This document shows positions 7,797 to 50,452 of a DNA stretch of 64,000 nt, piece by piece. Position 1 is the stretch's first letter. Every line of letters begins with the position of its first letter. Below the pieces are notes generated by a model, which was given only the letters and a program-made list of their open reading frames with translations, did not search any database and was not told the DNA's origin. Both the position numbers and the translations under genes were made by a program. This stretch comes from Dichotomicrobium thermohalophilum (lineage in GTDB: Bacteria; Pseudomonadota; Alphaproteobacteria; Rhizobiales; Rhodomicrobiaceae): contig NZ_QXDF01000001.1 in assembly GCF_003550175.1 (NCBI RefSeq), positions 1,326,501 to 1,390,500 on the forward strand, given 5' to 3'.

Positions 7797-9520
7797 TCCT
7801 GTGTCTCCCGCGCTTTCAGCCCGCCGAGCTGATCGTCAAGCTCGCTCCGGAGGTCATCAAAGCGCTCGATTTCATCCTCCCCGATCTCCTCGCCCATGCG
7901 CTGCAGCCGCCGGTAGACCGACAGCCCGGCGATGTCGTCCGGATCCGCGCCGCGCTCCAGCGCCTCGAAGGCGAGGTCGATGAAGCGAATGACGAGGCGC
8001 AGCATCTCGATCTGCCGCTCGGGCGAGCAGTAGCGATCAGTTTTTGAAAAGGCAGACTGGCTCAAGAGCGCCTCATTGACGAGCTGGGCGCAGGTGAGAG
8101 TCAACTGCTGGTCGGCGGGCAGGGCGTCCTTGCCGACGATGCGCGCCATGCGCTGGAGATGGGCTTCGCGCTCCAATAGCGTGAGCAGGCGCTCGCGCTG
8201 GCGGTACCAGTCGGAATTGCCCTTTTCCGTCCACCAGCCGGTGAATTTCTCCGCGTCTTCGGAATAGGACTGCAACGGATGGATGGCCGGATAGAACCGC
8301 GCCTCCGCGCGCTCCTTGTCCAGCCCCCAGAAGCAGCGAATGTAACGCTTGGTGTGGCTCGTCACCGGTTCGGAGAAGTCGCCCGCGGGCGGGCTGACCG
8401 CGCCGATGATGGTGAGCGAGCCTTCCTCGCCGGTCAGCGTCGTCACGCGCGCCGCGCGCTCGTAGAAATCGGCCAGCCGCGAGCTCAGATAGGCGGGATA
8501 GCCCGCCTCCGCCGGTAGCTCGCCCAGCCGACCGGAAACTTCGCGCAGCGCCTCGGCCCAGCGGCTCGTCGAATCCGCCATCAGCGCGACATGCTTGCCC
8601 TGGTCGCGGAAATATTCGCCGACCGTCACGCCCGCGTAGATGCTCGCCTCGCGCGCCGCCACCGGCATATTCGAGGTGTTGGCGATGATGACCGTGCGCT
8701 CCATGAGCGGACGGCCCGTGCTCGGGTCGGTCAGGTCAGGGAACTCGTTGAGCACCTCGGCCATCTCGTTGCCGCGCTCGCCGCAGCCGACATAGATGAT
8801 GACGTCCGCGTGCGCGTGCTTGGCGAGCGTTTCCTGCAGCACAGTCTTGCCGGTTCCGAACCCGCCGGGGATGGCGGCGCGGCTGCCGCGCGCAATCGGG
8901 AACAGCGTGTCGAGAATGCGCTGGCCGGTGATGAGCGGGCGGTCGCCGGGGAGGCGGTCGCGAACCGGGCGCGGCCTGCGCACGGGCCAGCGATTGTGCA
9001 GGTGGACCTCGTGGCACGCATCATCGTCGTCGCGCACGACCATGAGCACCTGCTCGCGATCGATCTTGCCTTCCTCCGCGATCTCCTCGACCGTGCCGGA
9101 AACGTGGGGTGGCACCAGGCAGGGTTCCTCCAGCCCGTGCATCGTCACCTGAGCGTAAATTTGCCCGGGTTTGACCTTATCGCCCTCGCTGACCTGCGGC
9201 TGGAAGCGGCTCTCCGTGTCGTCGCCCTCCACAAAGCGTTCCTCGGAGAGCGGGCGGAGCAGGCCGTCGTAGATGTTTCCGAGCAGGCCGGGCCCGAGCG
9301 GTACGGACAGCGGCTGGCCGGTCCCGTGAACCGGATCGCCCGGTTTCAGGCCGGTCGTGTCTTCATAGACCTGCGCCACGAATTCGCGCCCGCGCAGGCG
9401 GATCACCTCGCCGGGAAGCCCGGCTTCACCGACCTCAATCGCCTCACCGAGCTGGAACGCGCCCTCGCTGACCGCGTGCAGCACCGGCCCGCCGATCCAG
9501 CGGATGCGCGCCTCAGCCAT
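7793..9520 (-). CDS. ntpA: V/A-type ATP synthase catalytic subunit A
   Basis: This is the catalytic ATP-binding subunit of the rotary A3B3 head. It is 575 residues, normal length. The Walker A loop GGFGTGKT lies at residues 219-226, with the downstream signature [11 protein letters not shown] and the [13 protein letters not shown] and [16 protein letters not shown] motifs of the family. The usual loop is GPFGSGKT, so this is a mild variant. The long non-homologous insert typical of V/A catalytic subunits is present before the P-loop (residues about 110-190), which separates it from F-type beta. It overlaps E upstream by 8 bp and B downstream by 4 bp. Confidence 0.95.
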
Positions 9521-10184
9521 GCGACGCCTCCTCGTCGGTGTTCTCGCTTTCCTGCGTGGCCGCGAGCTGCTCGATCTCGGCGATCAGCGCGGCCTGCACC
9601 CGCCCGGTCTGCGCAAGGAGCGCCTTCGGGGTCGCGTCAAGCACCGCACCGTCCGCCTCGACGCGCAGGCCCGCATCGATCTCTTCGGAGGCTTCGGTTG
9701 CGGCGTCGTCAACGTTTTTTTCGCCCAGCCAGCTTTTCAGCTTGTCGCCGAAGTCGGAGTCGCTGTCCGCCGGATAGACCACGCGCCAGCCCTTGCGCTG
9801 CAGCCGGAACGCCGCACTGTCGAGCGCGCCCTTTGCCCATGTCTCGCGATCCTCGGCGCTTTGCCAGCGCGCCTTGAGCGCGTCCGTCAGCTTCGGCCAG
9901 GCCGTTTCGACAATGTTCGAGAGCGCGGCTTGATGACGCTGGCGCTGCTCGGTATCGCGCTGGGCCTTGGCCTGATCCATCCGTTTGGCGCGATCACGCC
10001 GCAATTCCTCGGCCGCCTCATGGAACCGCTGGCGCGCGCTGCGATAGGCCTGCTGGGTAATGCCGCGGGCTTCTTTGCGCGCTTCGTTCAGGATCCGCTC
10101 ACATTCGTCCTGCTTGCGCGAGTCGATGGCGTCGATGAGCGCCTGCGCCTGTGTCTCGGCCAGATTTGCGTCGGCTTGGCTCAT
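9513..10184 (-). CDS. ntpE: V/A-type ATP synthase subunit E (peripheral stalk)
   Basis: Subunit E pairs with the H/G coiled-coil protein to form the stator stalk that holds the catalytic head against the membrane. The 223-residue protein starts with a long charged helix (about residues 10-100, rich in Arg, Glu and Ala; for example DECERILNEARKEARG) and ends in a globular domain that caps the head. Sequence similarity in this family is weak, so the call rests on length, architecture and its fixed position between F and A. The acidic C-terminus (SENTDEE) is not unusual. It overlaps F by one base and A by 8 bp. Confidence 0.85.
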   Translation of the reverse strand: MSQADANLAETQAQALIDAIDSRKQDECERILNEARKEARGITQQAYRSARQRFHEAAEELRRDRAKRMDQAKAQRDTEQRQRHQAALSNIVETAWPKLTDALKARWQSAEDRETWAKGALDSAAFRLQRKGWRVVYPADSDSDFGDKLKSWLGEKNVDDAATEASEEIDAGLRVEADGAVLDATPKALLAQTGRVQAALIAEIEQLAATQESENTDEEASHG

Positions 10185-14263: not shown

Positions 14264-14857
14264 TCAGATCACGCCGCCGAGGATGGCGACGCCGCTCAGC
14301 GCCATCACGCCGCCAATTCCGCGCGCGAGATTTAGCCCCGCCTGGCGACCTGCCGCGCCGAGCGCGAAGCCCGCCAGGATGCCGCCGCCGTGAAGCAGCG
14401 CGGTCGCCAGCATAAAGCCGATCCCGTAACTCAAACCTGACGCTGTCGCCGGCATTTCCGCGCCGTGCGCATGGCCGTGGAAGATCGCGAAGACGGCGGT
14501 GAGCGCGGCGGCCAGCAGGCCGGGCGTGCTCTTGCCCAGCGTCACCATCGCGCCGATCACGACGACCGACAGCGCAATTCCGGCCTCGACGTAGGGTAGG
14601 GCGAAGCCATAGAGCGCCAATGCGCCGCCCGCGGCCATCGCGGCGATGAAAGCCAGCGGCAGGCCCCATAGCGCCGCGCCGCCGATCAGATAGGCCAGCA
14701 GCCCGACGGCGACCATCGCCAGCACATGATCCAGCCCGCCGATCGGGTGCATCAGCCCGTAGGTGAAACCGGAGACTTCGCCGTGCCCCGTATGCGCGGC
14801 AGCCGGAACCGCGATCAGACACAGCGCCAGAGTCAGGAAAAGGCTACGAAGGAGCAT
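14264..14857 (-). CDS. hupE: HupE/UreJ family nickel permease
   Basis: HupE proteins bring nickel into the cell for hydrogenase or urease. The 197-residue protein starts with a signal peptide ending in AAAHTGHG, so the mature N-terminus begins with histidines. The signature HPIGGLDHVLAMVAVGLLA follows, then about six membrane helices; a second histidine motif FHGHAHGAEMP lies near residue 125. These match known HupE motifs. No urease gene lies in the window but a hydrogenase does, so a role in hydrogenase nickel supply is likely. The gene diverges from the Crp/Fnr regulator gene. Confidence 0.92.
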   Translation of the reverse strand: MLLRSLFLTLALCLIAVPAAAHTGHGEVSGFTYGLMHPIGGLDHVLAMVAVGLLAYLIGGAALWGLPLAFIAAMAAGGALALYGFALPYVEAGIALSVVVIGAMVTLGKSTPGLLAAALTAVFAIFHGHAHGAEMPATASGLSYGIGFMLATALLHGGGILAGFALGAAGRQAGLNLARGIGGVMALSGVAILGGVI

Positions 14858-16180: not shown

Positions 16181-17923
16181 TTAACGCACGCGAATCTGTG
16201 CTCGTTCCTCGCCGTCTGGGTCAGTCACATGGACTGCGCAGGCAATGCATGGGTCAAAGCTGTGAACAGTTCGCTGGATTTCGAGCGGCTGTTCGGGATC
16301 GTGGAGCGTGTGGGCATCCATGAGCGCGGCCTCATAAGGGCCGATGCCCCCCTCCGCGTCTCGCGGGCCGGCGTTCCAGGTGCTCGGAACAACCGCCTGA
16401 TAATTGTCGATCACCCCGTCCTTAATGACGATCCAATGCCCAAGCGCGCCGCGCGGCGCTTCCATGAAGCCGACACCGCGCGCGACGGAGGGCCAGGTGG
16501 AGGGGTCCCATTTCGCAGTATTGTGCACCTGGTTGTCGCCGCCCTTGATGTTGGCGATCAGGTTGTCGAGCCAGATTTCCATCTGGTCGGCGAACACCTT
16601 CGATTCGATCGTGCGCGCCGCCGTGCGGCCCATTGTCGAGAAGATCGCCTCCAGCGGGAGGTCGAGCTGCTGCAGCGCGCTGTCCGCCAGGTTCTTCGTT
16701 GCTTCGTGGCCCGTGGCGTAGAGCATGGCGAGGCGGGCCAGCGGGCCGACCTCCATCGGTTTGCCGCGCCAGCGCGGCGACTTCAGCCAGGAGTAGCTCT
16801 CCTCGACATTGAGTTGCTTGTAGGGCGGCTGCGGGCCGGTGTAGCTCAGGTTTGTCTCGCCGTCATACGGGTGCAGACCGACATCTTTGCCGCCCTCGTA
16901 GTCGTACCAGGCGCGCGCGACGAACTCCTGCACCTGCTCCTGGTCGTTGAGGTCGACCGGCTCGATCGTGCTCAGGTCGCGGTTAAGGATCGCGCCTGCG
17001 GGAATGAACCAGCTTTCCGGGTCATCCATGCCTTGCTCGGGGAAGTCGCCAACGGTCAGGAAATTGCCGACGCCTTCGCCGCGGCGGAACCAGTCCTTGT
17101 AGAAGCTGGCGATCGCGATCGTGTCGGGCAGGTAGACCTGCTCGATGAAGGCTTGCATAGATCGGATGATGCGGCGCACTTCCTCCAGTGTGACGATGTT
17201 GACGCCAGTGGAGGCTGTCCCGTCCGTGCCGGGGCCGGCGCTGACAGGGCTGGGCGCGCCGCCGACGAGGAAGTTCGGGTGCGGGTTCTTGCCGCCGAAG
17301 ATCGCGTGCAGCCGCACGACGTCGCGCTGCCAGTCCAGCGCCTCCAGATAGTGCGCCAGCGCCATCAGGTTGGCTTCGGGCGGCAGCTTGTATTCCGGGT
17401 GGCCCCAGAAGCCGTTGGCGAAGATGCCGAGCTGCCCGCTCTCGACGAACTCCTGCACCTTCTTCTGGACCTGACGGAAGTAGCCCGGGCTGGAATTCGG
17501 GTGGCTGGAGAGCGACTGCTGTAGCTCGGAGGTTGCCTTCGGGTCGGCCTTGAGCGCGGAGACGACGTCCACCCAATCGAGCGCGTGCAGGTGGTAGAAG
17601 TGCATCACATGGTCATGCACGTGCTGCGCCGCGATCATCAGGTTGCGGATGAGCTGCGCGTTGGCCGGGATCGTATAGTCCAGCGCATCCTCCACCGCGC
17701 GGACCGAGGCAATACCGTGCACTAGCGTGCACACCCCGCAGATGCGCTGGGCGAAGGCCCACGCCTCGCGCGGGTCACGGCCTTTCAGGATGATCTCGAT
17801 TCCGCGGACCATCGTGCCCGAGCTGTAGGCCTGGGTGATGGCGCCCGCGTTGTCGGTCTCCGCCTCGATGCGCAGGTGCCCCTCGATGCGGGTGATCGGA
17901 TCGACGACGACGCGCTCTGCCAT
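16181..17923 (-). CDS. hynL: [NiFe]-hydrogenase large subunit, Isp-type (group 1e)
   Basis: This catalytic subunit holds the NiFe(CN)2CO site and oxidises H2. It is 580 residues. The N-terminal motif RICGVCTLVHG supplies the first cysteine pair, the C-terminal DPCIACAVH the second. After the histidine a 15-residue tail would be removed by the HupD protease once nickel is inserted. The gene is preceded by hynS, isp1 and isp2 in the order known from Thiocapsa and Allochromatium (hynS-isp1-isp2-hynL), which defines the Isp-type enzymes. It sits 13 bp after isp2. The protein travels with the Tat-exported small subunit. Confidence 0.96.
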   Translation of the reverse strand: MAERVVVDPITRIEGHLRIEAETDNAGAITQAYSSGTMVRGIEIILKGRDPREAWAFAQRICGVCTLVHGIASVRAVEDALDYTIPANAQLIRNLMIAAQHVHDHVMHFYHLHALDWVDVVSALKADPKATSELQQSLSSHPNSSPGYFRQVQKKVQEFVESGQLGIFANGFWGHPEYKLPPEANLMALAHYLEALDWQRDVVRLHAIFGGKNPHPNFLVGGAPSPVSAGPGTDGTASTGVNIVTLEEVRRIIRSMQAFIEQVYLPDTIAIASFYKDWFRRGEGVGNFLTVGDFPEQGMDDPESWFIPAGAILNRDLSTIEPVDLNDQEQVQEFVARAWYDYEGGKDVGLHPYDGETNLSYTGPQPPYKQLNVEESYSWLKSPRWRGKPMEVGPLARLAMLYATGHEATKNLADSALQQLDLPLEAIFSTMGRTAARTIESKVFADQMEIWLDNLIANIKGGDNQVHNTAKWDPSTWPSVARGVGFMEAPRGALGHWIVIKDGVIDNYQAVVPSTWNAGPRDAEGGIGPYEAALMDAHTLHDPEQPLEIQRTVHSFDPCIACAVHVTDPDGEERAQIRVR

Positions 17924-49609: not shown

Positions 49610-49742
49610 AACTTGCCTCTTCCCCTTGCTGAGTCGCCTGAATCGCTTGCGACGTTGCCGCCATCCTTCGGCGACTGTCGATGTTCGGCAAAGGCCGATA
49701 GCAGCTTGCGCGACGTTTTGACCGGGGTTAACCTTGATTGCG

Positions 49743-49905
49743 TTCGGCGGTTCCCTAACGGGACGAAGAGGGAAGCTGGTGCGAAACCAGCGCTGCCCCC
49801 GCAACTGTGAGCGGTGAGCCAGCCTTCACGATGCCACTGGCCTGCATGGGCCGGGAAGGCGGAGGCCTTGGCGACGACCCGCGAGCCAGGAGACCTGCCG
49901 TTGAA
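49743..49905 (+). promoter_or_regulatory. Cobalamin (B12) riboswitch
   Basis: All hallmark blocks of the cobalamin riboswitch occur in order: AGAGGGAAGCTGGTGCGAAACC, shown as AGGGAA-type start, then GCTGCCCCCGCAACTGTGA (the B12 box region, about 49793-49810), GCCACTGG (49833-49840), GGGAAGGCGG, and GAGCCAGGAGACCTGCC (49883-49899). Flanking TTCGGCGG and CCTGCCGTTGAA can close the P1 region. A GGGGC/GCCCC hairpin at 49925-49939 sits directly before the AAGGAG site of the next gene and may be the expression platform. B12 would normally repress the downstream gene. Confidence 0.95.
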
Positions 49906-49954
49906 CGAGAAGTCACCATAAGCTGGGGCGGTGGGCCCCGTAAAGGAGCACAGC

Positions 49955-50452
49955 ATGATCCGTTATATCCTGATGGCAGCCGCATTCACGCTCGCGGCTG
50001 GTCTGCCGGCGACTGCGCATCACGATGGCGAGCAGTATCGCAAGGCGAGCGTTTCGGTGAGCCACGCCTGGACAGGCGCGACCGCAGAAATGGCGCACGC
50101 CATCGAAGTTTACATGACCATCGAGAACGCCGGCTCGGAACCCGTGACTTTGACCGGCGCGGACGTATCGTTTGCGCGCCCGGGCGTGTTTCAGGCACAG
50201 GTGGTTGGCGCGGATGGGACGCTGCGCACGCGCGAAGTCAACACCGTCGAGATCGGGCCCGGTCAGAGCGTGACGATGCAACCGGGTGGCCTGCGCATCG
50301 TGTTCAACGACGTGCAGCGGCGGCTGTTTGCCGGCGACTATTTCCAGGCGCATCTAGAGTTTGCAGAGATCGGCGAGGTTGAGATCGACGTCGAGGTAGA
50401 GAAACTCGGCGAGGAAACCGACCAGGACGGGGACGAGGGCGAACTCGGCTAG
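49955..50452 (+). CDS. Secreted PCu(A)C-fold protein under B12 riboswitch control, ligands missing
   Basis: The 165-residue precursor has a signal peptide (about residues 1-21, cut before HHDG) and a domain of the PCu(A)C/DUF461 copper-chaperone family: VSVSHAWTGATAEMAHAIEVYMTIEN in pieces, SEPVTLTGADV, FQAQVVG, VEIGPGQSVTMQPGGLRIVF and FAGDYFQAHLEF. In copper-binding members His and Met ligands occupy the HEM, KMR and GGxHxM positions; here these read QVV, RTRE and GGLRIVF, so the site is absent. Instead there is an N-terminal His pair and a strongly acidic C-terminal tail. ATG 49955 is six bases after AAGGAG. Control by a B12 riboswitch points to cobalt or cobamide physiology, but the role is unknown. 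Confidence 0.82.
   Translation: MIRYILMAAAFTLAAGLPATAHHDGEQYRKASVSVSHAWTGATAEMAHAIEVYMTIENAGSEPVTLTGADVSFARPGVFQAQVVGADGTLRTREVNTVEIGPGQSVTMQPGGLRIVFNDVQRRLFAGDYFQAHLEFAEIGEVEIDVEVEKLGEETDQDGDEGELG

Follow-up and report, generated by a model that had tools for sequence, protein, structure and literature searches.

The nearest structural relatives of the protein described here are PmoF1 and PmoF2, for which Fisher 2019 is reportedly the original paper. Both are PCuAC proteins, a family best known for copper. PmoF1 is described as a histidine-brace copper protein in passages of a histidine-brace review and of the YcnI paper (PMC10952591, PMC8424229), and methanotroph PCuACs without the primary Cu(I) site have a brace of the form HX10H according to passages of the 2026 AccA paper (PMC13006917). 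N-terminal histidines also occur in the anglerases Ang-1 and Ang-2, domains attached to membrane permeases and proposed to act as metal catchers; the 2025 study of these proteins states that it discarded any sequence whose position 2 is a ligand, and its text does not mention cobalamin (PMC12537917). For cobalt destined for B12, passages of a 2021 review cover importers, sensors and CobW, known as the chaperone that handles cobalt in the cytoplasm during aerobic B12 synthesis, and in these passages no periplasmic cobalt carrier was seen (PMC7689651). How bacteria select scarce cobalt over tighter-binding metals outside the cytoplasm seems to be an open question.

The locus analysed here lies in a window of 64,000 nucleotides, the whole stretch of DNA under analysis. 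Computation places there a cobalamin riboswitch ahead of a gene for a PCuAC-fold protein, a member of one clade in which the Cu(I) set has been lost, four histidines are conserved and the riboswitch co-occurs with CobN. The riboswitch–gene pair and the clade are solid. According to the original prediction, no system of this kind is known to have been described, and no B12-switched PCuAC or DUF461 protein was found in open papers that spell the names in these forms, without brackets. Papers combining PCuAC with riboswitches mention neither B12 nor cobalamin in the passages considered, and COG2847 is absent from the matches listed among riboswitch and cobalamin papers to 2015. Passages from the main text of two riboswitch surveys (PMC3766115, PMC2211319) do not name a B12-switched PCuAC. 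A passage of a Magnetospirillum transcriptome study (PMC9549626) lists a cobalamin riboswitch and does not name the controlled gene.

The riboswitch, its leader and the gene

The cobalamin riboswitch aptamer (RF00174) is present at full length at 49731..49916 on the plus strand (cmscan 146 bits, E 5.5e-37, model positions 1-189/189), far above the gathering score of 31.5 bits. A cobalamin riboswitch had been predicted at 49743-49905, with a match of RF00174 over that interval as the check; the interval is covered entirely. The end of the aptamer is separated from the start of the PCuAC gene by 38 nt, which form a probable expression platform (49917..49954, +): a GC hairpin with a G-rich loop (GGGGC-GGUGG-GCCCC, 49925-49939, +), a Shine-Dalgarno-like AGGAG (49944-49948, +) and then the ATG. 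As the hairpin precedes the Shine-Dalgarno stretch and no intrinsic-terminator match was found between aptamer and gene, control by the riboswitch is most likely exerted as a translational block. The kissing-loop model underlies such inferences of translational control for cobalamin riboswitches.

A fold program returned the GC hairpin with its G-rich loop in six of the nine riboswitch-bearing relatives considered below, the window included; in the remaining three, a GGGGT loop on a bulged stem was read by eye. A Shine-Dalgarno-like stretch follows the hairpin in most of the nine, with none clear in Fulvimarina. Of 14 other RF00174 leaders from the same genomes, several show similar G-rich hairpins when read by eye, so that the hairpin is a general feature of such leaders. 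Folding energy gives no support: neither the whole leader (z -0.04) nor its 3' part (z 0.51) does better than shuffled sequences. The basis of the riboswitch call is therefore the Rfam model together with recurrence.

The gene (49955..50452, +, stop included) encodes a single-domain protein of 165 aa from the ATG, and in the open reading frame listing it lies inside a longer GTG frame (49931-50452). The protein matches the PCuAC family PF04314 with 68.5 bits against a cut-off of 29.4; NCBIfam models gave no match. Residues 1-21 (49955..50017, +), read from the sequence, resemble a signal peptide and end in ATA before His22. The pair His22-His23, with which the mature protein is predicted to begin, is encoded at 50018..50023 (+). 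His37, the counterpart of the histidine in the HPW motif, is encoded at 50063..50065 (+), and His48, which is specific to the clade, at 50096..50098 (+). Both the His pair behind the signal-like peptide and the acidic tail that had been pointed out earlier are present.

The best of five AF2 models, built from a shallow alignment of 5 sequences, is a beta-sandwich with pLDDT 81.8 and pTM 0.74 (57.6-69.1 for the pLDDT of the other four). Its best fold match is PmoF2 (6p1g_B; Z 18.2, 1.4 A over 117 residues), with AccA (9yah), PmoF1 (6p16/6p1e) and a Streptomyces protein (3zja) as further top matches; as modelled, the fold is the cupredoxin-like PCuAC fold. In a sequence search of the PDB, the PCuAC domains of PmoF1 and PmoF2 were the best matches to the window protein. 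With a profile of the clade as query, 9rez/9rf0 came first and PmoF1/2 next; the 9rez match starts in what looks like an expression tag. The family score and these PDB matches bear out the assignment to the PCu(A)C/DUF461 fold in the original prediction. The window genome (G000, 3.0 Mb) has a second PCuAC gene with canonical HTM/HIM motifs, and its two RF00174 copies are the leader described here and one before cobO.

A clade with four conserved histidines

The window protein belongs to a distinct but rare clade found in 11 species, the ten further members being G135, G207 (with a 2.5-kb stretch identical to Acuticoccus kalidii), Fulvimarina pelagi HTCC2506, G411, G424, G554, G627, G779, G780 and G781. 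Searches covered genome sets of relatives (150), of the order (397), of the class (385) and of two families (12 and 17), plus named genome contigs. Members were found by score in 2/150 relatives, 3/397 genomes of the order and 5/385 of the class, counts that include the window each time and come from overlapping sets with differing cut-offs. In one family, five of the 12 genomes have a member by score; the window's own family is represented by seven further genomes (G001-G007), none of which has one by score. A phylum sample of 398 genomes added no new member, and because the unmatched genomes among those listed all belong to the window's order, this says little about other classes. No relative was found in viral contigs, and the matches in 180 and 176 plasmid records were weaker, as judged from the 15 and 8 listed.

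All 11 members match PF04314 at E 0.01 or better, and the window protein shares 37-46% identity with the others. Against a profile made from the clade itself, ten loci score 200-244 bits and all other PCuACs 134 or less, the high scores being partly a product of the profile's construction (place-repeating loci were excluded). In a tree of 92 rows the 11 members form one clade with support of 99/96, recovered in 100% of 200 bootstrap trees, although the bootstrap had not fully settled. Three weak rows below 75 bits (L051 and one second copy each from L020 and L023) were omitted, as were two identical sequences. The tree also includes L083-L087, which lie outside the Rfam scan. L051 (Thalassobacter) was considered as a member and rejected, since its HTM and HIM motifs, read by eye, mark it as an ordinary PCuAC.

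Column counts comparing the 11 members with 81 other PCuACs separate the two groups at the copper ligands. The full Cu(I) set, the H-Xn-M-X21/22-H-X-M primary site, is complete in no clade member (0/11) but in 77/81 others, and a simple copper-chaperone reading is thereby rejected as far as the primary site is concerned. The window protein has Q at the H80 column, L/T at M90/M92, R at H114 and V at M116; single ligands survive elsewhere in the clade (H114 in one member, M116 in one, M92 in two). The earlier statement that the copper ligands are replaced thus holds at all four ligand positions, whereas the detail given for it does not, H-E-M standing opposite Q-A-Q and not QVV. Further, although the canonical set is indeed incomplete throughout the clade, the phrase "lost its copper site" overreaches, because PmoF1/2, likewise devoid of the primary site, bind copper with a histidine brace at the N-terminus. 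The window protein has an N-terminal-type His and the homologous second His. The Pfam label "Copper chaperone PCu(A)C" on the clade proteins may for its part mislead.

What the clade shares instead is a set of four histidines. His22 and His37, found in 11/11 members, also occur in 49/81 and 46/81 other PCuACs, respectively; His23 and His48 are equally invariant in the clade (11/11 each) and occur in only 1/81 others each, and His37 together with His48 in 0/81. The spacing from His37 to His48 is HX10H in all 11 members, and that from the first His to His37 is HX14H in 9/11 and HX15H in 2/11. These four residues (H22, H23, H37, H48) account for all but one of the five histidines of the window protein. 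Position 129 is His in 9/11 members and Tyr in the window protein, which also lacks the His/Asp-rich tail of several members. The His pair is preceded by A-X-A in 10/11 members (LLA in L090), from which the pair is predicted to open the mature chain.

Among the 81 other PCuACs, the Cu(I) set is incomplete in four, each of them a second copy at its locus (L007, L008, L010 and L074). L007, L008 and L010 are tandem PCuAC loci of one family whose second copies have R at H80, T at M92 and V at M116. They represent another copper-site-less branch, without His48.

Riboswitch association and the link to cobalt

In 9/11 clade members the gene is immediately preceded by RF00174 in the same orientation, with 97-146 bits: in the window, G135, G207, Fulvimarina, G411, G424, G627, G780 and G781. 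It is missing at the copies of G554 and G779, two sister species of one genus. The same arrangement was found at 0/72 usable loci of other PCuACs; 75 had been scanned, of which L103 and L104 repeat L067 and L065 and L102 sits at a contig end with ~18 nt upstream, the next shortest upstream stretch being ~451 nt (L064). A chance or artefactual pairing is rejected, as the pair recurs in other families. In G424, the sole RF00174 found in the genome is the one before the clade gene. From the aptamer to the assumed start codon there are 25-127 nt across the riboswitch-bearing members. The distance is 120-127 nt in G411, G780 and G781 (L059, L091, L092), where an earlier in-frame start after the hairpin is possible.

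L025, the one locus among those of other PCuACs to have RF00174, was a candidate for a canonical PCuAC under a B12 riboswitch and was rejected. Its RF00174 (2571-2842, +) is divergent from the canonical PCuAC gene, lying on the other strand and pointing towards a frame that looks CbiM-like by eye. In Fulvimarina (L050) the canonical and the B12-switched PCuAC kinds stand side by side: convergent to the switched copy are a canonical PCuAC gene (8618-9172, -) and a DUF2946-like gene read by eye (9232-9645, -).

Adjacency to cbt, btu or cob genes, named as a check in the original prediction, did not materialise as an operon: none with cob or cbt genes was seen among the clade loci, and only in G135 is the gene just upstream of this kind, a CobB/CobQ-like amidotransferase. 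No cobalt importer was seen beside the clade gene in these loci. Elsewhere in these genomes RF00174 precedes ordinary B12 genes, namely those for cobO, CobU, MetE, the ribonucleotide reductase alpha subunit, a BtuB-like receptor and HupE, and in addition a periplasmic binding protein gene and DUF1636. The reductase, MetE, binding-protein and BtuB matches fall below NCBIfam whole-protein cut-offs, all but the binding protein being fragments at locus ends, and six further targets were read by eye only. In G207, the riboswitches of L106 and L115 precede the genes for a ribonucleotide reductase alpha subunit and MetE, which are probably B12-independent isozymes.

CobN and HupE were searched in the ten whole genomes carrying the clade gene, a set to which Fulvimarina does not belong. 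CobN (TIGR02257, above cut-off) is present in 8/10, and the two genomes without it, G554 and G779, are the same two whose copy lacks the riboswitch. This link represents one evolutionary event and is weak by itself. Further, the clade gene is kept in both CobN-less genomes and is thus not strictly tied to B12 synthesis. HupE (PF04955) was found in 7/10 genomes, with a weak match of 39 bits in G207, and is absent from G554, G779 and G411, the last having both CobN and the riboswitch. HupE directly follows RF00174 in three clade-bearing genomes (G627, G780, G781). The window itself contains a HupE/UreJ permease gene (14264-14857, -; PF04955 181.8 bits, the only such match in the window genome), which is without a riboswitch and lies near the gene for the large subunit of a [NiFe] hydrogenase (16181-17923, -).

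The only RF00174 of G554 precedes a BtuB-like gene and not the clade gene. Together with the CobN pattern, this suggests that B12 control of the clade gene is tied to the insertion of cobalt and not to the uptake of B12. A role in cobamide uptake is accordingly less favoured than cobalt handling, on an argument that rests on this one lineage. Of the earlier proposal that B12 control would fit a cobalt or cobamide role, the conserved riboswitch association therefore favours the general direction and G554 disfavours the cobamide half.

Proposed role, rival explanations and known systems

Collectively, these observations point to a periplasmic metal carrier under repression by B12, with cobalt as the most likely metal, a reading to which we assign a probability of roughly 0.45. 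Plentiful cobalamin would lower expression of the gene through the riboswitch, most likely by blocking translation; in B12 shortage, the small PCuAC-fold protein would be secreted to the periplasm. There the four invariant histidines near the mature N-terminus, for which the Cu(I) His/Met site has apparently been exchanged, would capture Co(II) and pass it to an inner-membrane importer, HupE-like or another, and the imported cobalt would feed CobN for new B12. That such proteins make up an undescribed class of periplasmic cobalt carriers with a four-His N-terminal site, made at B12 shortage, feeding B12 synthesis and scattered over alphaproteobacteria, is put forward somewhat more tentatively.

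The main rival, though an unlikely one, is a PmoF-type histidine-brace copper protein in which the N-terminal amine, His22 and His37 would hold copper, and which in B12 shortage would deliver or buffer copper for a B12-independent pathway. An N-terminal His with a second His can bind copper and does so in the nearest structural relatives, PmoF1 and PmoF2, whose PCuAC domains are the best PDB sequence matches and among the best fold matches; passages of the 2026 AccA paper attribute an HX10H brace to methanotroph PCuACs lacking the primary site (PMC13006917). However, the clade does not have HX10H from its first His but HX14-15H in 11/11 members, copper leaves both the B12 control and the extra invariant His23 and His48 without explanation, and the window genome retains its separate canonical PCuAC. 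A role in carrying or buffering a different divalent ion (Ni or Zn), with only indirect B12 control, is distinctly improbable. Passages of the anglerase study describe secreted proteins with an N-terminal His that bind Ni(II) and Cu(II) (PMC12537917), and HupE proteins move Ni or Co according to a passage of the 2021 review (PMC7689651), but B12 control would be natural for cobalt and less so for Ni or Zn.

Ranking just after it, at similarly poor odds, is a periplasmic corrinoid-binding protein, whose histidine would ligate the cobalt of a cobamide and so aid uptake or salvage. B12 uptake genes are classic targets of B12 riboswitches, as passages of two surveys state (PMC3766115, PMC2211319); however, CobN-less G554 has its riboswitch on the BtuB-like gene and not on the clade gene, and the predicted fold, a small beta-sandwich, would offer no evident corrinoid pocket. 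In the loci seen, a B12-related neighbour is missing from most copies, as would suit a structural or regulatory relic that binds no metal and inherited its riboswitch by chance proximity. Such a relic is nevertheless very improbable given four histidines that stay invariant at 37-46% identity and a riboswitch in 9/11 members from several families.

The clade is a natural experiment in metal-specificity switching, with the fold of a copper chaperone kept, the copper ligands dropped and B12 control gained. With four residues and one riboswitch to address, the idea is directly testable.

Among known systems, the canonical PCu(A)C chaperones (PF04314: DR1885, 1x9l; Streptomyces lividans, 3zja; AccA, 9yah) share the domain family and the fold with the clade, but the full Cu(I) set is absent from all 11 members, which stand apart as a separate clade in the tree. 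PmoF1 and PmoF2 (6p16, 6p17, 6p1e, 6p1f, 6p1g) are closer: they have the PCuAC fold, no primary Cu(I) motif, and an N-terminal His with a second His that alignment reading identifies as the HPW His. Yet their brace is HX10H, whereas the corresponding spacing in the clade is HX14-15H and its only HX10H is formed by His37 and His48; the extra invariant His23 and His48 and the B12 riboswitch also set the clade apart. The anglerases resemble it in being secreted with an N-terminal His, predicted in the case of the clade, but belong to another family, while the clade proteins are not fused to permeases and have a ligand at position 2, by which rule they would have been rejected in the anglerase study. 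CobW likewise handles cobalt for B12, the role proposed here, but is a cytoplasmic GTPase of unrelated fold. Finally, the cobalt importers under B12 riboswitches, HupE and CbiMNQO, match the physiology and regulation expected of the clade, but are membrane proteins without homology to it.
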